Below are positions 13,175 to 64,000 of a stretch of 64,000 nt of DNA, piece by piece (position 1 is the stretch's first letter; each line of letters opens with the position of its first letter). The notes under the pieces were generated by a model. That model was given only the letters and a program-made list of their open reading frames with translations, was not told the DNA's origin and did no database searches. Made by a program: the position numbers and the translations under genes. Location of the stretch: positions 1,798,001-1,862,000 of the forward strand of contig JAPWKE010000003.1 of the NCBI GenBank assembly GCA_028283655.1, given 5' to 3'. This DNA comes from Acidobacteriaceae bacterium. GTDB lineage: Bacteria; Acidobacteriota; Terriglobia; Terriglobales; Acidobacteriaceae.

Positions 13175-14578
13175 TTACGCGGCTTTCCTGAGCTTTGAAA
13201 CCGCTTGGCTTGATGGCTTTGCTTCCTTCTTCGCTTTGGCTTTCGCTGCGAACTCGGCCTTGGCCTTCTGCGCGATGGCATCGATGTCCACCTTGTAAAG
13301 AGCGGCTGCTTCCTTGCGCACACTCGGCGTATTGGAGCGAGACGCGGCCAACACGATGGTCAACTCGACCACAGTGCGAGAGAGTGTGCTTTCGTCGGCA
13401 CGGCGGAGATAGGCGAGAAACAGCTTGTCGATGTTCTCGGTATCCCTCGACCGTCTGATGCCATGCTGTTTGGCAAGGGCTTCAAGGCGCGGTCAATTGC
13501 GACGCGACGAACAGCAGATCACGCTTCATCAGGCGCACCGGAACGGCGGCGCTGATGGCAGCAAGAACGCGTAACCCGGTCGCATTGGCGATGGCTTGCT
13601 CTCTGCGCTGCTTCTCCTGCTCGGCCTTCCAACCTTGCCTCGTCGCGGTCGTCGCGCTGCGGCTTCGGGTGGTGAACCGGGCAAGCGGAATTTGTGCAGA
13701 CCCTGCGCAACGTGCCGACTTCGCTTCCATCAGTCACGATGGCTTCGGTGGTGAAGTTGCACGACTTGAACTCAGGCCGCTTCGCCTCGTCCTTGTCGGC
13801 TGGCTTCTCCGCGCGAATCTCTGTGTACTTGTTGCGCGGCAACGTCACGCTACCTTCCCGACTGCTGCCCATAGGCTGTGCTGATTTGCGCGAGCTTGGG
13901 ACGTTCCGCGATGGTCTTGGCGACGTGCGCCGCAGCCTTCGACTGGTAGCAGGTTGGGTCTGTGCAGGAATCGAGCTTGCCCCTGATGTCCGAAAACAGG
14001 AGCTTGTTGTGTCCGGTGCTCTTGGGGCAATCAACACAGCTTCCCGCTACTGGCACAAGCTGCGCGTTACGCTTGTCGAACGGCGCATCCTTGAGTGCGA
14101 GGACGATGTTGTATCAATCCAGAATTGCAGGTTACGGACGGGCAACAGGACGCGGGTGGGCTTGCTGCCTCCGTTGTAAACCTCCTTGAAGCAAACGGAC
14201 AATGCCTGTTCCTGCTCGACTGGTTGCAGCTTCGCCAGCAAGAGAGCATGCCCCACGCCGATTTCTCGGCATAGAACGCCTCGACCACAACCCGCGGACG
14301 GTCTACGAGCTTAAGACGCTGGGCCACAAACGCCGGTGTCTTGCCCACTCGCACTGCTATCTGCTCAATGCAGTATTTCGGCTCCTCCAAGTCAACAACG
14401 CACGGAAGCTGTAATTGTGAAAGCGGCTCATGGCCGTGAGGTAATTGGTGAGGGCTTCTGAGTGTCCGGCCTCCAACTGTTCAATCAGTAGCTTGATGTT
14501 GGCGGCGATGAGTTCCTGTTTGGTGGAGGGCTTCTTGCCGTCGATGGCGGTGACATTGGTGGTGGCCTTGCTGCTCAT
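13175..14578 (-). pseudogene. ardC-parB deletion fusion, multiply frameshifted
   Basis: The gene begins like ArdC: ATG 14578, AAAGGAG upstream, STKQELIAANIKLLIEQLEA, then MSRFHNYSF. After roughly 50 codons it passes at about 14405-14414 into the middle of ParB (FRALL, then LEEPKYCIEQIAVRVGKTPA). The deletion removed the rest of ardC, the small DUF gene and the ParB N-terminus. The ParB part is scattered over frames, including the cysteine block CVDCPKSTGHNKLLFSDI and the C-terminal ALYKVDIDAIAQKAKAEF. There is also a small deletion near 13490. It cannot make a working protein. Confidence 0.88.
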
Positions 14579-14764
14579 TGTGTTTGCTCCTTTGGTCGGC
14601 TTTGGCTTTTGCACTTACCGCGTTGAAACGCGGCATGTACATGCCGAACGCCACCTGGCGAAGGCGGGGGTAGCAAACGGAAAGGTCTTCGAGCGAAGCT
14701 TTTTGGGGGACCGCGCGCAGCGTGGGGGAGCCAAAACCCGAAGGGCGAATGGCCTTGGAGAGCG

Positions 14765-14920
14765 CGGGGGCAGCGCCCCCGAGGGAAAGTCTGGTTACCG
14801 CATTCCGTGCGCGTCAGCGCACAGAGATGACAGGGTGGGCGTTGCGGGAGGGAAAGTCCCGCAGAGGAGGGTGGCGGAAGACGCGCAGCGTCTGGAGACA
14901 GGGAGGAGCATCATCCTCCC
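14765..14920 (-). other. Structured multi-hairpin leader upstream of ardC (copy A)
   Basis: Five stems lie 187-342 bases upstream of the ardC-like start: 14765-14781 (CGGGGGC/GCCCCCG), 14807-14822 (GTGCGC/GCGCAC), 14844-14862 (GCGGGA/TCCCGC), 14880-14892 (GACGC/GCGTC) and 14901-14920 (GGGAGGA/TCCTCCC). Copy B upstream of the intact ardC has the stems in the same order and at the same distance, with different bases in stems 1, 3 and 5 that keep pairing. This suggests a selected secondary structure: a leader RNA, a transfer-origin part, or a single-stranded promoter. Confidence 0.6.
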
Positions 14921-15457
14921 TCCACAGGAGACATTTCTCTTTTGCTGGTGTCCAATCGTAGTGATCACGGACACGATTCGGAGACACCTTCTATGGGGCG
15001 AGTGCGGCTACTTGGTGAAGATAGGAAAGCGATGGGTAGGCTGCTGGCACTGCGAGGGATTGCTGCCCTTTTGCCTTGATGGCATTGCTGACTGCTGGAG
15101 CGCAGCCTATCCGCCAGACGAAATTGGTCACGATCTACACACTTCCCCAACACCGACCAGCGGCCTCCGACGCCACAAGTCCGCCGTCTCATTAACCAAC
15201 TCGGGAGCCCCGATCCAGTCATTGCTGAAGGCGCGGAATATGCACTCCTCAAACCTTTGTCCAGAGATCGAGCCACAGCTCCGATATGCCTTTGGCGAAG
15301 AGTTCAGGAAGCTACCACCGCCGCTTCCGAAATCGTTCTTGATGGAACATGGCTGCGTTGGCGGCGGAGGGTTTGGTGGTGCCCAGCCTGCCGAACGTCA
15401 GCCGCATCCGATCTATGCGTCCCTCGCCGCATTGCTGGAGCGGCGTAGTGAGCTTCG
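14921..15457 (+). other. Degenerate region without an intact gene
   Basis: Frames in this stretch are open on the plus strand but do not hold together as a protein. One short part at about 15165-15230 reads LINQLGSPDPVIAEGAEYAL, loosely like a HEAT repeat, and then runs into a different composition. I treat the stretch as gene debris. Confidence 0.3.
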
Positions 15458-52019: not shown

Positions 52020-53615
52020 TTACGCGGCTTTCTTGACGGCTGCTGCTGCCTTGATGGGCTTGGCTTCCTTCTTTGCCTTGGCCTTGGCCGCGAACTCCGC
52101 TTTGACCTTCTGCGCGATGGCATCGGTGTCCACCTTATAGGCGGTCGCGGCATCCTTGAGAACGGCGCTCGGATTCCCGCGCGTTGCCGCCAGCAGGATA
52201 CTTGCCTCCACCAGCAGCCGGGAGAGAGTCCCTTCATCGGCACGGCGAACAAAGGCGGTCAGCGTTTTCTTTACGCCTCCATCGTCGCGCTGCTGCCGGA
52301 TGCCATGCTGCCGCGTCAACATCTCGATGCGGCTTTCGTCCATGACAGACGCCAACCGTTCGATGACGAAAAGCAAGTCACGCTTGAGCAAGCGCACCGG
52401 GACAGCCGAACCGATGGCAGTGAGGACGCGCAACCCGGTTGCATTGGCAATCGCCTGCTCCTTGCGCTGCTTCTCTTGTTCGGCCTTCCACTTCTCCTCA
52501 TCCCGCCTGTTGCTTTTCCGCTGCGGAGGATGATGCACGGGACAGGTAGGATTGGTGCACACCTTGCGCAACGTGCCGACTTCGCTCCCATCGGTCACGA
52601 TGGCTTCGGTGGTGAACTTGCACACCTTGAACTCAGGCCGCTTGGCTTCGTCCTTGCTCGAAGGCTTCTCGGCGCGAATCTCGGTGTATTTGTTGCGCGG
52701 GAGCGTGGTGCTACCTTCCTTCTGCTGGCCGTAGGCTGTGCTGATTTGCACGAGGTCGGGCTTCGCGGCGATGGTCTTGGCAACATGCGCCGCAACCTTG
52801 GACTGGTAGCAGGTGGGGTCAGTGCACGAGTCCAGCTTGCCGCCGATGTCTGAAAACAGGAGCTTGTTGTGTCCTGTCCGCTTGGGGCAATCGACGCAGC
52901 TTCCCGCCGCTGGCACAAGCTGCGCGTCCCGCTTGTCGAAGGGTGCATCTTTCAGTGCAAGGACGATGTTGGTGTCAATCCAGAATTGGAGGTTGCGGAC
53001 AGGCAACAGAACGCGCGTTGGTTTCGCGCCTCCGTTGTAGACCTCCTTATAGCAAGCGGAGAGTGCCTGTTCCTGCTGGTCTGGCTGCAGCTTCGCGAGC
53101 AGGAGCGCGTGTCCCACGCCGATTTCCTCGGCATAGAAGGCCTCGACCGCAACAGGCGCGAGGTCGGTAAGTTTGAGGCGGGTTGTCACATACGCCGGAC
53201 TCTTGCCCATCTTGGCGGCGATCTGCTCCACGGTATAGGTCGGTTCCTCCAAGTTCAGAAGCGCACGAAAGCCCTGCGCCTCTTCCATCGGGTGGACATC
53301 GCGGCGTTGCAGGTTTTCAATAAGCTGCGCTTCGAGTGCCTGGGCGTCGGTCAAGTCCACGATGCGAACCGGAACGGTGACGGATTCGGCCATCTGTGCA
53401 GCGCGGAAGCGTCGGGCACCTGCCACAATCTCGAAGCCATGCTCCGTAAGCGGTCGAACCAATAACGGCGAAAGTACGCCCTGCGTACGGATGGACGATG
53501 CAAGCTCCTTCAAGGCGTCATCCTCGAAGATGCGGCGCGGGTTGGTCGTGGACTCGCTCAAGAGAGCAAGCGAGACGTTGCGGTATTCGGTGGCGTTGAC
53601 GATTTGAGTTTCCAT
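52020..53615 (-). CDS. parB: ParB/Spo0J-family plasmid partition protein
   Basis: This 531-residue protein starts at ATG 53615 after AAAGGAG; the frame is open to 53678. The N-terminal ParB domain has AGARRFRAAQMA and ENLQRRDVHPMEEA, the GxRRxxA and ENLQR boxes of CTP-binding ParB clamps. A helix-turn-helix follows (YTVEQIAAKMGKSPAYVTTR). Mid-protein it carries a cysteine cluster (CVDCPK, then CTDPTCYQ) and later CTNPTCPVHH, which could bind metal. The C-terminus is a Lys/Ala-rich tail. No ParA gene is near, so the protein may act in regulation or as a plasmid-type DNA-binding protein rather than in segregation. Confidence 0.88.
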   Translation of the reverse strand: METQIVNATEYRNVSLALLSESTTNPRRIFEDDALKELASSIRTQGVLSPLLVRPLTEHGFEIVAGARRFRAAQMAESVTVPVRIVDLTDAQALEAQLIENLQRRDVHPMEEAQGFRALLNLEEPTYTVEQIAAKMGKSPAYVTTRLKLTDLAPVAVEAFYAEEIGVGHALLLAKLQPDQQEQALSACYKEVYNGGAKPTRVLLPVRNLQFWIDTNIVLALKDAPFDKRDAQLVPAAGSCVDCPKRTGHNKLLFSDIGGKLDSCTDPTCYQSKVAAHVAKTIAAKPDLVQISTAYGQQKEGSTTLPRNKYTEIRAEKPSSKDEAKRPEFKVCKFTTEAIVTDGSEVGTLRKVCTNPTCPVHHPPQRKSNRRDEEKWKAEQEKQRKEQAIANATGLRVLTAIGSAVPVRLLKRDLLFVIERLASVMDESRIEMLTRQHGIRQQRDDGGVKKTLTAFVRRADEGTLSRLLVEASILLAATRGNPSAVLKDAATAYKVDTDAIAQKVKAEFAAKAKAKKEAKPIKAAAAVKKAA

Positions 53616-53700
53616 GAGGGTGTGCTCCTTTCGAGCGGTTGAGTGGTGAAGGGTCACAGAGCGGCACACGTCGGGCATGGTTCCGCTCCAACGGAGCGGA

Positions 53701-54115
53701 CTAGCCGAGAATGCACTTGTCCGTGAAAGCCTCCACGAAACCCTGCGCGTCTAGGTTCTTGTCCCAGAGTTTGGCGAAGCTCTCGTGTTGTTCGTGCAGT
53801 TGGGTGTGGTAGCAGTAATTGCCGTCCTGAATGAAGCGGCTCCACCGCTCAACGCCTACATAGTCATTCCTCCAATAGAACGCGTTCAGGTGTGGCCCTC
53901 CCGCCATGCCAAGCTCGAAGCACATTTCGGGGTCGCGCATGAGGTCGCCATTCTGTTCGCCGTAGTGCGCGACAGAAATAGCAGGAAGGCCGCAATGGCC
54001 CGGACTCGTCCATCGACTCAATGACAAGCTCCATAAACGGCTCATTGGTCACTTTGAGGTACAGGCCGGGGTGCCATCCACCAGCCCGCTTGATAAGTTC
54101 GAGCACGGTCTTCAT
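53701..54115 (-). pseudogene. Conserved DUF protein between ArdC and ParB, frameshifted
   Basis: ATG 54115 overlaps the ardC stop (ATGA). The first part reads MKTVLELIKRAGGWHPGLYL, then FMELVIESMDESGP. Near 53992-53998 the frame changes and continues as GLPAISVAHYGEQNGDLMRD with NAFYWRNDYVGVERWSRFIQ to the stop at 53701. The two halves are clearly one protein of about 138 residues with a one-base indel. I believe similar proteins (perhaps DUF6908) occur beside ArdC genes, but that is recollection. Function unknown. Confidence 0.7.
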
Positions 54116-55029: not shown

Positions 55030-55215
55030 GGTGTTTCTCCTTTGCGGTTGCTGTTGCTTTTCATGCCGTGCGCGGCATGTACCTACATGCCGAACGCCTC
55101 CTGGCGAAGGCGGGGCGGCAAGGCGCAATGAGGAGGGGGATCGCCCACCCGAAGGGCAAGCGCAGCGCAGTGATTTTTCGCAGAAAAATTATGGGGAGAC
55201 CTCTTGCGCCGCGCC

Positions 55216-55366
55216 AGGGCAGAGCCCTCAGCGAAGGTCTGGTTTCCTTATTCGGGCGCACTAGCGCACAGGATTCACAGGGTCGCGTTGCGGCAGGAAC
55301 AGGCCGCTGTGGAGGGTGGCGGAAGACGCATCGCGGCTGGAGTCAGGGAGGAGTGCAACTCCTCCC
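55216..55366 (-). other. Structured multi-hairpin leader upstream of ardC (copy B)
   Basis: Stems AGGGC/GCCCT (55216-55228), GCGC/GCGC (55256-55267), GCGGC/GCCGC (55290-55307), a weak CGC/GCG (55327-55335) and GGGAGGAG/CTCCTCCC (55346-55366) lie 187-337 bases upstream of the ardC start. They match copy A in order and spacing, with changed but still pairing bases in stems 1, 3 and 5. No open frame explains the conservation. It may be a leader RNA, an oriT segment or a single-stranded promoter. Confidence 0.6.
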
Positions 55367-55578
55367 TTCATGATGAGGCGACGCTGGGAGTAAGCAGTTT
55401 GGTTCCTGCCTCAGAGATTCGAGAAGCCATCTCGCCGACAAATAATCCAACCCTGCAACGTACGAGATGAACGGTCGGTCCTTCCAACGAAGGGTTCGAC
55501 AAGGTTTGAATACGATCGAAGCTCTTCTCCCGCATTTAGATTGAAGCGTAGGTCCCGTGCGAAATAGTTGCTCCCCAG

Positions 55579-60636: not shown

Positions 60637-62220
60637 TTAGCGCCCACGTCCATACCCCGGAATGGATATGTCTGGAGGCGGCAGGGTCACTCCGTTGTCC
60701 ATTCCAAGTGCTGGCACCGCTGCCTTGATCGACTTGCCTTGCGCTACGCTATTTCCCCCCGATGCGTAAATGCTGAGGTCTCGAGTGTGGCTGGGAAGCC
60801 GGGCAAGATCTTGCTGATGCTGTGCAAGCTCTGTTGAATCGCCGGTCACTATGACTCGGTCCACGCCACGATTTGAAATTGTATCAACGGCGTAGCCGTA
60901 GTCGATCATTCGGGATTGTTCCTGGGACAGTACAATGGTCTTTCCCTGGTCGGTGCGAACGGCAAGTGACTGGCCATTGCGAACTTGCTCTACGGTGGCA
61001 AGGTCATTGGTGCGGATTTGCGATTGGCGTTCGACGGCTGTGAATCGAATGCGCTCGCCTTCGGATATCTCCCGTTGTTCTTCGCGGAAGATAGAGCTTT
61101 GGTACGTTTGCCGGCGAAGATGTGCCGGGTTGTAGTTGACTTCGTTCCCGTCGCGGCTGGCGACGGTGAGACGGTTTGCCTTCGCATCGATCGATAAAAC
61201 GGTGACCTCGCTGTTGTCGGCGATACCGTGTTCGATAGGGCTGCCGGTTCTGAAATGAATTCGGTCGCCGGGCGAGTAGTTGGCAGCGAGGCGCGGCTCG
61301 TCGAGATGCCGTTCCACCCATACGGGTAGAGTATGGCTGTCGGACGATAGCCGTCCCTGCTGCACGAGTTCGTGCCGGATGAGTTGGGTCAAATCGCGCC
61401 GTTCATTTGCGTCGGGAGCGAACACAACAGTACGTCCCGATTGGGAGCTATACGCACGTGCAACCGAAGCAAGCCGATCTTCGGAAGTGGCATACGAATG
61501 GAGTTGACCCTGCTCCCTGAGGATGTCGGTGGCGGTGCTGGGATGGCTCTTTCGAAATGCAGTGACGGCGCGCTGCACGTTTGTCTGTGCCGACTCGGGT
61601 ACGAGACTCACCGCTGCCGTTTTCGAGATATCGGTGGACAGGCGCCTGCCAAGTCGGGCCGAATCATTGGTATAAATCTGTGCGTCCTCCGACGCGCGGG
61701 AGATGGCCACGTATGCCAGCCGCGAATTTATGAGCGAACGCGGACCTTCCGTATCAAAGTGCGCGATGACACGACCTGCCGTTAGACCCTGCGAGCTGTG
61801 GGAGGTGACGGCGTACCCATGGTCGAACAGCCGGGTGGTAGAGGCATTGAATGTGAGCGTTCGTCTCTGTTTGCCGTCCATCAGAACGGTGACGCGCCCG
61901 TCCTCGATGTGTTTGATGGTAGCGAGATCGCGGTTCGCGACACCATACTCCTTCAAACGGCCAGTGAACTGTATCCGGTCTCCAGTTGCAAACTCCCGCT
62001 CCTGCTCACGGAAGACATTGACTCCACGCAGGCGACGTGGGTCATAGGCAAGAGTCGTGCCATTCGCTAGTTCAACTGTCAGGAGATTGGCATGGGCATC
62101 TACTGCTCGGACGGTAGCGAAACTGCCGCGCTCAATGCCATTTGCCTTGCTACCCGCACCGTATTGGATGACATCGCCGGGAGTGTAGCGAGCGGCCCAG
62201 GTGCGATCAGCGCCGGTCAT
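60637..62220 (-). CDS. MobF relaxase-helicase, C-terminal part (split by frameshift)
   Basis: The 527 codons begin at ATG 62220, overlapping the upstream frame by ATGA. They hold the C-terminal helicase motifs SHSSQGLTAGRV (motif V) and YVAISRASEDAQIY (motif VI), plus repeated SH3-like modules (YTPGDVIQYGAG, FATGDRIQFTG, YSPGDRIHFRTGS). Upstream frame comparison shows LHTLAHRSDMTGADR is continuous with the N-terminal half, so this is the second half of one gene, not an independent protein. Confidence 0.82.
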   Translation of the reverse strand: MTGADRTWAARYTPGDVIQYGAGSKANGIERGSFATVRAVDAHANLLTVELANGTTLAYDPRRLRGVNVFREQEREFATGDRIQFTGRLKEYGVANRDLATIKHIEDGRVTVLMDGKQRRTLTFNASTTRLFDHGYAVTSHSSQGLTAGRVIAHFDTEGPRSLINSRLAYVAISRASEDAQIYTNDSARLGRRLSTDISKTAAVSLVPESAQTNVQRAVTAFRKSHPSTATDILREQGQLHSYATSEDRLASVARAYSSQSGRTVVFAPDANERRDLTQLIRHELVQQGRLSSDSHTLPVWVERHLDEPRLAANYSPGDRIHFRTGSPIEHGIADNSEVTVLSIDAKANRLTVASRDGNEVNYNPAHLRRQTYQSSIFREEQREISEGERIRFTAVERQSQIRTNDLATVEQVRNGQSLAVRTDQGKTIVLSQEQSRMIDYGYAVDTISNRGVDRVIVTGDSTELAQHQQDLARLPSHTRDLSIYASGGNSVAQGKSIKAAVPALGMDNGVTLPPPDISIPGYGRGR

Positions 62221-64000
62221 GTCAGAGCGGTGCGCAAGTGTATGCAGGGTTTCTGCACGAGAGCCAAGTAGCCCTGCTGCTTGAGTTCGTTGCGGACGGC
62301 CTCGTTGATCTCCTGACGACTGCGATTGTCGGGCGATACCACGATGGTGTCTGCAGGACGTGCCGCATAATCTTTCGCGATGGCGGCGATACGGTCGCGG
62401 CGGTCGGTGACTTCGATGATGCGCCCTTGTTCTCGTAGAAGCCTGATGCCTTCGCGAGTTTCGTTTTTCGAAAGATGCTCAACGGCTTTGAGCAGTTCCG
62501 GGTCCTTTTGCCTCAGGATGCGGTCGAGCTGCGAAGTTCGCATACCGGCCTCCTGCATCTGCTGAAAGGGACGGCCTGCATCCACGCCCTGATGCTGCGC
62601 GGTGTCTCCGATAACGAGAACGCGATCATTCGCATTCAGCTTTGTGAGGAACGCTCGCATTTGGCGAGTGCTCGCGAGACTGGATTCGTCGAGCATATAA
62701 AGATGACGCGAGTCAGCACTTCGGTCGACACTTCTGGCCAAGAAGCTCTGCAACGTGGTGGCTTCGATTCCAGCTTCACGAAGCTGTGCGGCGGCACGCG
62801 ATGTTGGCGCGAATCCTTCCACGACGAAACCACTTTTTTCGGCACCTTCACGGATGGAACTGACGACGCTCGTTTTGCCGGTTCCTGCGCGTCCCTGCAA
62901 ACCGTGGATACGATCGGTGGAATTGAGAACTTCCTCAATGACACGCTTTTGGGAGTTATTGAGATAGGAGCGGGAGTGCGCTTGATGCTGGGCGGCCTCG
63001 GCCGACATGATCGGCCTCACGGCGTTCCGTCCAGCCTGCACTTGAGCGATGTTGGCGCGTTCCGCAGCGATTGTTTCCGCTGTCGTAAAGCTTTTGCCGG
63101 ATGCGTATTTGTGGCCGTCAACGGGGAGAAAGTCGCCACGTTGTTGCCGAGCCTCAAACTCACCACGGACTTGTGGGTATGTGGTCATCCCCATGCCGCG
63201 ACGGAGCGCATCTCGGAGCAAGACACGCTCGTCCAGGACAGCCTCTCGCTCAAATAAGGATGAACGCGCGTAGGTGACGGCTTCTTTCGCATGGGCTGCC
63301 TGGTCGGGGTTGTGAGATTGGTGTTGGGCACGAACGCGGGCCTCCGCAACAACCCGTTCTGGTTGGTTGCCGTACTCTGCCGCCAGATCCCGATGGGCGG
63401 CGAGGACCTCAGCGGGCGTCAGCGTATGCTTCTTCTCGCGCGTGGAACGGGCCGCGATTTCGGCGGCCTCCGGGCCGGAAACGCCACGCCGTTCCATTTC
63501 TTCTTTGATCTTCTCCCGCCTCTGACTAGAGGCAGTCAGAAATTCGGGTGTATATCCCTTGATCTCAGGTGCCCCGCTCTGTCCGGGCTCGATCTCGTAC
63601 CCCAAGGAACGTAGACGGTACATCAACTCGGACTGGTAGACAGCCGTTACGAAGTTCTGGCTTTCAAAAAATGGTTGTTCCTGTAACGCCCGTGTTTTAC
63701 CGTCCGCGCGCTGGGTGACATTGAAGATGACAGCGTGGGTGTGGAGCTGCGGCGCGGCGTAGCCATCCACGGGCCGCGCGGTGTCATGCTCGAACTTGGC
63801 AGCGAGGAACTTACCCGTCTGCTCGGCAGGCTTATTCCCCCCGAGACGCGCGTGCGTGTACTTTTCCAACTCGTCCAACGCAACGGTGACAGCTTCGCGG
63901 TGTGCCACGCGGATGCGTTCGTCCCCGCCCACCAATGCGGTCAGTGAAACGGATTTCGCCGGGGCGAACATGGCATCCCAACCGGCGCGGTGGGCGACCG
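62217..64000 (-). CDS. MobF relaxase-helicase, N-terminal part (5' end outside window, 3' frameshifted)
   Basis: The frame is open to the right edge. It contains the TrwC/TraA relaxase core (HRAGWDAMFAPAKSVSLTAL, PQLHTHAVIFNV with the metal-binding His) and the helicase domain with LQGRAGTGKTSVV (Walker A), LYMLDESS (Walker B) and GDTAQHQG. After GYL near 62265 the frame diverges and stops in HLRTALT; a missing base there would join it to the next frame. The full protein would nick oriT and unwind DNA for conjugation. The catalytic tyrosine region lies outside the window. Confidence 0.85.
   Translation of the reverse strand, partial: VAHRAGWDAMFAPAKSVSLTALVGGDERIRVAHREAVTVALDELEKYTHARLGGNKPAEQTGKFLAAKFEHDTARPVDGYAAPQLHTHAVIFNVTQRADGKTRALQEQPFFESQNFVTAVYQSELMYRLRSLGYEIEPGQSGAPEIKGYTPEFLTASSQRREKIKEEMERRGVSGPEAAEIAARSTREKKHTLTPAEVLAAHRDLAAEYGNQPERVVAEARVRAQHQSHNPDQAAHAKEAVTYARSSLFEREAVLDERVLLRDALRRGMGMTTYPQVRGEFEARQQRGDFLPVDGHKYASGKSFTTAETIAAERANIAQVQAGRNAVRPIMSAEAAQHQAHSRSYLNNSQKRVIEEVLNSTDRIHGLQGRAGTGKTSVVSSIREGAEKSGFVVEGFAPTSRAAAQLREAGIEATTLQSFLARSVDRSADSRHLYMLDESSLASTRQMRAFLTKLNANDRVLVIGDTAQHQGVDAGRPFQQMQEAGMRTSQLDRILRQKDPELLKAVEHLSKNETREGIRLLREQGRIIEVTDRRDRIAAIAKDYAARPADTIVVSPDNRSRQEINEAVRNELKQQGYLALVQKPCIHLRTALT

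Follow-up and report, generated by a model that had tools for sequence, protein, structure and literature searches.

We describe a real, covarying, ardC-linked element of mobile elements in soil bacteria of the Acidobacteriaceae, a leader of five hairpins in which eight letters outside the first hairpin change in step with the purine arm of that hairpin. This covariation of a third strand with the stem is the main feature that goes beyond the paired hairpins recognized in the earlier note on this DNA, and the evidence for it is strong but not flawless. Our tentative reading, to which we give slightly less than an even chance, is that the leader is an intrastrand-triplex element that would form on transferred single-stranded DNA and serve early expression of ardC.

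The window, that is, the whole stretch of 64,000 nucleotides that was analyzed, contains two leaders of ~340 nt each on the minus strand, 5' of the ardC starts at 14578 and 55029. Five hairpins (H1 to H5) follow one another in identical order in both copies, all at the places and on the strand given by the earlier note, which had also quoted correctly three stem pairs whose bases differ between the copies while pairing is kept. A second block with more hairpins, module B, lies 3' of the five-hairpin part and reaches the ardC ribosome-binding site; module A denotes the first part of the leader. In RNA folding, both leaders were more stable than shuffled sequence (z of -3.3 and -2.6). Counts of stops and gap lengths in related leaders confirmed that no protein frame explains the region, as had been claimed: no single frame stays open over 330 nt in more than 20 of 101 leaders, and among 11169 gap stretches in comparisons of related leaders, 894 are multiples of three in length. 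On these counts, a protein-coding reading of the leader was rejected. The two ardC-like starts of the same note fared differently. The gene at copy 2 is intact, but the one at copy 1 is broken after 58 codons, which match copy 2 and are followed by a remnant of a ParB gene in a different frame.

Table 1. Features of the two leader copies and of neighboring genes in the window
Feature	Position	Strand	Evidence or remark
Copy 1 H1: purine 5' arm, loop, pyrimidine 3' arm	14900..14921	-	Core pairs mostly Watson-Crick
Copy 1 H1 purine arm GGGAGGA	14914..14920	-	
Copy 1 H2	14879..14893	-	Covariation
Copy 1 linker CCCTCCTC, proposed third strand	14864..14871	-	Covariation with H1 arm
Copy 1 H3	14844..14862	-	Covariation
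Copy 1 CGCCCA, 3' of H3 and AA	14836..14841	-	Possible H3 third strand, weaker evidence
Copy 1 H4	14804..14823	-	
Copy 1 H5	14766..14780	-	Insertion hotspot in relatives
Copy 1 module B, additional hairpins	14618..14666	-	
Copy 1 ardC 5' remnant, 58 codons, then out-of-frame ParB-gene remnant	14405..14578	-	
Copy 2 H1 (purine arm GGGAGGA, 55360-55366)	55345..55367	-	
Copy 2 H2	55324..55338	-	
Copy 2 linker CCCTCCAC, proposed third strand	55309..55316	-	
Copy 2 H3	55290..55307	-	
Copy 2 CGCGACC, 3' of H3	55281..55287	-	Simple third-strand code not obeyed
Copy 2 H4	55254..55270	-	
Copy 2 H5	55216..55228	-	
Copy 2 module B hairpins	55073..55112	-	
ardC, ArdcN domain, 305 aa	54112..55029	-	Pfam PF08401, E 4.3e-10
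DUF6908 gene	53701..54045	-	Pfam PF21849
ParB-family gene	52020..53678	-	Pfam ParB_N, HTH_ParB
TrwC-type (MOBF) relaxase with helicase domains, two ORFs, ardC strand	60637..63971	-	Pfam TrwC, AAA_30, UvrD_C_2

At copy 2, the intact ardC is followed by the DUF6908 gene and the ParB gene, and the relaxase ORFs lie ~5.3 kb from the leader. Between the two leaders, which have the same orientation, the window (14900-55000) carries glycosyltransferase, acyltransferase, epimerase, and capsule-assembly (Wzi) genes; judged by these genes, the stretch resembles a polysaccharide cargo island. Among named relatives, those closest to this ArdC belong to Acidobacteriaceae, e.g., Terriglobus, Acidipila, Edaphobacter, and Granulicella. 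A PDB search with it gave no match at an E value of ≤1; the ArdC of R388 is dealt with in PMC7213743.

The genome from which the window was taken has seven leader matches and six ArdcN matches, and all seven leaders (7/7) stand before ardC, one of these genes being the broken fragment at copy 1. With a profile of the seven copies, nhmmer recovered the leader in relatives (best locus of the named records, E of 2.6e-94). A covariance model (R1) made from 44 sequences of module A matched 87 of 300 genomes sampled from the family, 57 of 399 from the class, and 24 of 396 from the phylum, these samples overlapping; the matches outside the family came from four class-sample genomes and one phylum-sample genome (G720, locus L274). 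The model and genome search for which the earlier note had called thus found further copies before other ardC genes. When the loci fetched up to then were pooled, there were 177 distinct instances: ardC lies within 1.5 kb downstream on the same strand in at least 120 of them, it was not found there in 53, and 4 have too little sequence. The first figure is a lower bound, since one locus (L180) carries an ArdcN gene by Pfam that the BLAST step had not reported; some of the 53 are due to insertions, and in one instance (I026) ardC is on the opposite strand. In the held-out set described below, ardC was found within the same distance and on the same strand in 21 of 41 parsed instances. The leader is common to two divergent types of ArdC. 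Pfam searches with 20 genes near the 53 ardC-less instances returned DUF3560 (three genes), integrase (two), IS110 (two), an IS481-like transposase (one), ParB (one), other genes, four genes without a family, and the one ArdcN gene in L180; in three loci (L178, L195, and L252), the DUF3560 genes stand downstream of module A. On the Acidisarcina plasmid pACPOL2 (L124:8001-8700), an SSB gene is preceded by module B. A search of a plasmid collection with one leader (L006) as the query returned two records at an E value of ≤1e-5; the plasmid pACIX903 was located via its ArdC, and its leader was located via the profile.

Conservation starts at H1. Identity among related leaders is 0.58 in the 80 nt upstream of H1, which equals that of unrelated DNA, compared to 0.75 in module A and 0.70 over the next 200 nt. 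In three loci (L003, L056, and L259), a different 5' part replaces H1 and H2, with CCCCTCTGGACACCCC and GAGAGAATCTC in common before H3.

Covariation of the hairpins was assessed in an alignment of 103 model-aligned matches, 95 of them distinct, which was fitted to the tested structure and is therefore biased in its favor. Among the 95 distinct sequences, 95.0% of the cells are paired across the 11 base pairs that make up H2 and H3. The covariation statistics that had been asked for in the earlier note were strong, with 126 double-sided changes compared to 42 in shuffles, a number reached by none of 500 shuffles (0/500), and a covariation score of 0.324 compared to 0.118 for shuffled sequence. 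When the partner was slid by 1 to 3 columns, the H2/H3 covariation was lost. Each of the seven core pairs of H1 keeps Watson-Crick form in 90 to 108 of the 109 unique H1 sequences, and pairs 5 and 7 occur as both G-C and A-T variants. In most leaders, the H2 stem keeps a C.T mismatch (A.G on the other strand), while the neighboring pairs covary.

The linker, by which we mean the eight letters directly 5' of H3, between H2 and H3, tracks the purine arm of H1 in parallel, G going with C and A with T or A; parallel covariation of this kind is the signature of a third strand. In copy 1, 28 nt that include H2 separate H1 from the linker, and letters 1 to 7 of the latter all match GGGAGGA. Across instances, GGGAGGA is found with CCCTCCT or CCCACCT, GGGAGGGG with CCCTCCCC, GGGAAGA with CCCATCT, and GGGAAGG with CCCATCC. 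Of the 177 instances, 160 reached far enough for the linker to be parsed, which succeeded in 144 and failed in 16. Permutation of the 111 unique arm/linker pairs gave a z of 8.3 for the parallel register versus 4.6 for the antiparallel one. Because relatives share ancestry, we also formed disjoint pairs, nearest first, from 121 clear-register instances. At position 5, where 33 disjoint pairs differ by A/G in the arm, 25 have C with G and T with A, 3 have A with A, 5 are unchanged, and none is reversed; the linker differs in 28/33 pairs with a changed arm versus 6/60 pairs in which the arm letter is the same (Fisher, 4e-13). Of the 37 pairs that differ in this way at position 7, 27 are concordant with T, 2 are concordant with A, and 1 is reversed; where the arm letters agree, the linker differs in 16/59. 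The later disjoint pairs are distant; in the closer subset (similarity of 0.5 or more), 15 of 20 pairs are concordant at position 5 and 14 of 20 at position 7.

The prediction for positions 5 and 7 and for the parallel register was fixed before 60 further regions were fetched. This held-out set, which has many weak matches and was parsed with a slightly wider window than the first, gave 41 parsed regions, 14 that failed, and 5 that were already known. The overall match was again parallel (z of 5.5, 0 of 5000 shuffles, versus an antiparallel z of 2.7, 32 of 5000). Among the 31 clear-register regions, position 5 was weakly repeated: the linker has C opposite 20 of the 25 arms with G, and T or A opposite 4 of the 6 arms with A (Fisher, P = 0.04). 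Position 7 taken alone was not confirmed; C goes with 6 of the 11 arms that have G, and T or A with 10 of the 16 that have A (P = 0.45). A fixed-register control gave a z of 6.7 at parallel shift 0, at most 1.2 at other parallel shifts, and 4.4 for the best antiparallel one. In a scan of 115 windows, the linker was the single parallel outlier (z of 10.5 and a mean match of 5.95 of 8 letters; the second-ranked window had a z of 4.9 and 3.44 letters). The standard deviation of z in the background of the window scans was 2.0 to 2.6 (2.0 for the parallel scan), so relatedness inflates all z values. We also considered antiparallel Watson-Crick pairing between the linker and the arm, which explains less than the parallel register in the permutation, held-out, shift, and window comparisons; in the corresponding scan, the peak lies one base off the linker, with a z of 7.2 and only 3.06 of 8 letters. 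Three loci from other families match by eye at 6 to 7 of 8 letters each: GGGGAAAG with ACCCTATC in L272, GGGGAAAG with CCCCTTCC in L273, and GGGGAGGG with CCCCTCCA in L274. Among these, ardC is close by in L272 only.

A second triplex may exist at H3, for which the patterns are suggestive and weaker than at H1. The letters that follow H3 and AA mirror its 3' arm (CCTCCCGC AA CGCCCTCC in L006, and 8 of 9 letters in L274), and the fixed-register z is 7.4. In disjoint pairs, the putative third strand differs at position 5 in 30/35 pairs with a changed arm versus 20/84 without, and position 6 offers less support (43/52 versus 28/60). In the window scan, however, offset -1 scored a z of 8.0 (2.05 of 6 letters) versus 7.0 for the expected offset 0, and the simple code fails in some classes, for example GCGGC with CGCGA, and in copy 2.

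The code can be read on either strand. On the gene strand, it is that of the pyrimidine motif, in which T, not A, stands opposite an A-T pair; on the complementary strand, it is that of the purine motif, given as A(T).AT and G.GC in the description of triplex motifs in PMC4666352, which states that the purine motif cannot form in RNA and that pyrimidine-type triplexes can. At arm-A positions, the 73 differing disjoint pairs comprise 44 A/T, 14 C/T, 12 A/C, and 3 other changes, and at arm-G positions, the 34 differing pairs include 1 A/T and 22 C/T changes. Position 4 alone accounts for 31 of the 44 A/T changes, the remaining arm-A positions having 13 A/T, 12 C/T, and 8 A/C. This pattern favors the ardC complement, as DNA, as the folding strand; on moderate evidence, we suggest that this template DNA strand folds, the code leaning to a purine-motif DNA triplex. 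Counts made without a known-RNA control revealed no RNA-type excess of G.U in the stems of H1 to H4: H2 and H3 have 10 G.T and 10 A.C among 1022 cells, and H1, H3, and H4 have 9 G.T versus 17 A.C (P = 0.17). Searches of Rfam at gathering scores gave no match for the leaders; at an E value of ≤1, copy 1 had one match (E of 0.69, far below the cutoff) and copy 2 had none. E. coli-type -10 and -35 boxes, sought in linear register on either strand of 101 leaders, scored no higher than in shuffled sequence, and boxes resembling this consensus were not enriched upstream of, inside, or after module A.

Some loci have genes for ParB, a RepB-type primase, and SSB near the leader. The primase, detected by BLAST in nine loci, is always 3' of ardC on the same strand and is followed by SSB in six; it was found in only 8 of the 177 instances, many of the stretches read being short. 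These neighbors, in some loci with ardC at their head, look like a conjugative leading region. The only plasmid typed as conjugative is pACIX903 of Granulicella tundricola (MOBF, MPF_T), which has, in this order, the leader, ardC, two hypothetical genes, a RepB-family primase gene, and the SSB gene, and further on ParA, a stretch of ~1.4 kb in which no genes are annotated, and then the genes for type IV secretion and the relaxase. Apart from three intervening genes, these lie on the ardC strand, so that ardC, primase, and SSB point to the transfer genes. In the F plasmid, oriT lies ahead of the transfer genes. If oriT, whose position on pACIX903 we assume, is likewise ahead of them, the transferred strand would be the ardC template, the same strand as the triplex code indicates.

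We therefore consider a model, conditional throughout, in which the leader is a cis-acting DNA element. In the single-stranded ardC complement, H1 and the linker would fold into an intrastrand purine-motif triplex with H2 in between, its layers being the third strand, the purine arm, and the pyrimidine arm and its triplets G.GC, A.AT, and T.AT; H3 and the letters after it would perhaps make a second triplex. The fold would form on the incoming single strand in the recipient, and the folded site would start early synthesis of RNA (or of a primer), so that ArdC could appear before second-strand synthesis and restriction. The leader would then do the job of Frpo with a different fold, or it would prime DNA synthesis. 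Two observations count against the early-expression mechanism: E. coli-type promoter boxes are not enriched, and the E. coli PIT triplex elements showed no activity as promoters and left conjugation undisturbed in earlier work as summarized in PMC4666352.

Among known systems, we place the leader with the intrastrand triplex motifs, as an element that would work like the single-strand elements of leading regions, and not within Frpo. The earlier note had compared it with Frpo/ssi promoters, and the leading-region-like genes and the link to ardC uphold that comparison in part; the lack of enriched -10 and -35 boxes sets the leader apart. As Frpo/ssi elements are portrayed in PMC11541004 and PMC9849209, both they and the leader stand upstream of leading-region genes that include SSB and anti-defense genes, with the leading regions here deduced from gene content, and in both cases structure is expected on the transferred strand. 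In contrast, the Frpo stem-loop described in these two sources rebuilds -10 and -35 boxes, of which none are enriched here; this comparison is one of features. With the PIT, BoxC, and TM_ECO motifs as described in PMC4666352, the leader shares a bacterial origin, a single strand that supplies third-strand, purine, and pyrimidine segments, the code of G.GC and A(T).AT, and a link with instability. At H1 and the linker, three segments of one strand that obey G.GC, A.AT, and T.AT, as intrastrand purine motifs do, are found as covariation. The search definition in that source has loops of 1 to 6 nt, whereas the third strand of the leader lies beyond a hairpin, at 28 nt. TM_ECO, according to the same account, is a highly conserved 37-nt intergenic repeat that shows no association with transposons, phages, or plasmids and lacks promoter activity; the leader, in contrast, varies in sequence while its three segments covary, heads ardC on mobile elements, and has a hairpin between the third strand and the duplex. 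H-DNA has mirror-symmetric pyrimidine segments in common with the leader (the H1 3' arm and linker, and CCCGC AA CGCCC at H3) but requires just a mirror repeat in duplex DNA, whereas the leader also conserves an inverted repeat on the same strand. This conserved inverted repeat points to a single strand and disfavors plain duplex H-DNA. In searches of the literature on ArdC, leading regions, and intrastrand or mirror-repeat triplexes, we found no description of the leader element and no report of a triplex tied to conjugation and the leading region.

An RNA function had also been proposed in the earlier note. The sense RNA would form the same hairpins together with a pyrimidine-motif triple helix (C+.G-C and U.A-U) that controls transcription or translation, which would suit a leader that extends to the ardC ribosome-binding site, is on the same strand as ardC in the 120 instances so counted, and has covarying hairpins beside one gene class, as the structured leader RNAs of Rfam do; the parallel code of G with C and A with T fits the pyrimidine motif, which RNA can form by the account in PMC4666352. 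Unlike those RNAs, the leader has no family match in Rfam and no G.U excess, G.T being no commoner than A.C in the stems, and its third-strand code leans to DNA, A being frequent opposite arm A, mostly at one position. The region 5' of H1 has neither conserved sequence nor promoter enrichment. Triplets that are mostly C+.G-C would need acid, a further point against the RNA. The proposal found no support in these data, and we regard a regulatory leader RNA as unlikely. A shade less probable is an ssi-type start of DNA synthesis, possibly recognized by a RepB-type primase that the element itself encodes, that would serve the second strand in the recipient and to which the adjacency of ardC would be secondary. 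The constant place of the primase 3' of ardC in all nine primase loci, SSB after it in six, and the occurrence of module A without ardC nearby agree with such a site. Yet conservation extends to module B, as far as the ardC ribosome-binding site, and few instances have the primase, even allowing for the many short stretches.

Insertions are frequent enough in the leader to raise the question of whether folded DNA, like att or REP sites, is itself a hotspot for recombination or insertion, ardC being carried along. The same kind of insertion end at H5 is common to 17 of the 27 late-truncated instances, 3 of the 27 have an IS110-like end, another element sits within the H3 loop, and extra partial copies exist. 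Nevertheless, the link to ardC holds over divergent ArdC types, and insertion destroys the element instead of keeping it; we regard this explanation as very improbable. Insertions were seen in L064, L133, L148, L168, L187, L043, and other relatives; the common end at H5 is followed by an IS481-like transposase in L133, the IS110-like end goes with an IS110 transposase in L168 and L187, and the element in the H3 loop has inverted ends. Ordinary relatedness, under which a mirror-like linker is simply inherited with the type of H1 and there is no third strand, would account for the inflated background of z and for the failure of position 7 alone in the held-out set, but it is at odds with the disjoint pairs, the overall held-out score, the shift controls, and the loci from other families, and we think it the least credible of these explanations by a hair.

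Third-strand letters that change in step with a duplex across relatives are the trace expected from selection on a triplex, and the intrastrand-triplex reading would matter in this respect: in the account given in PMC4666352, bacterial triplex motifs have so far been without a proven function, and their stable folding in the cell has not been seen. It is a broader and doubtful proposition that a natural triplex of single-stranded DNA, visible through compensatory changes in three segments, is the working form of a gene-control element, and that DNA triplexes on the incoming conjugative strand are a new kind of promoter or primer site that switches on anti-restriction genes before the duplex is made. 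If the leader does act on the incoming strand, it would offer a testable route to early anti-restriction expression in plasmids far from the F group, and three-strand covariation would be a means of finding such elements where searches for promoter boxes fail.
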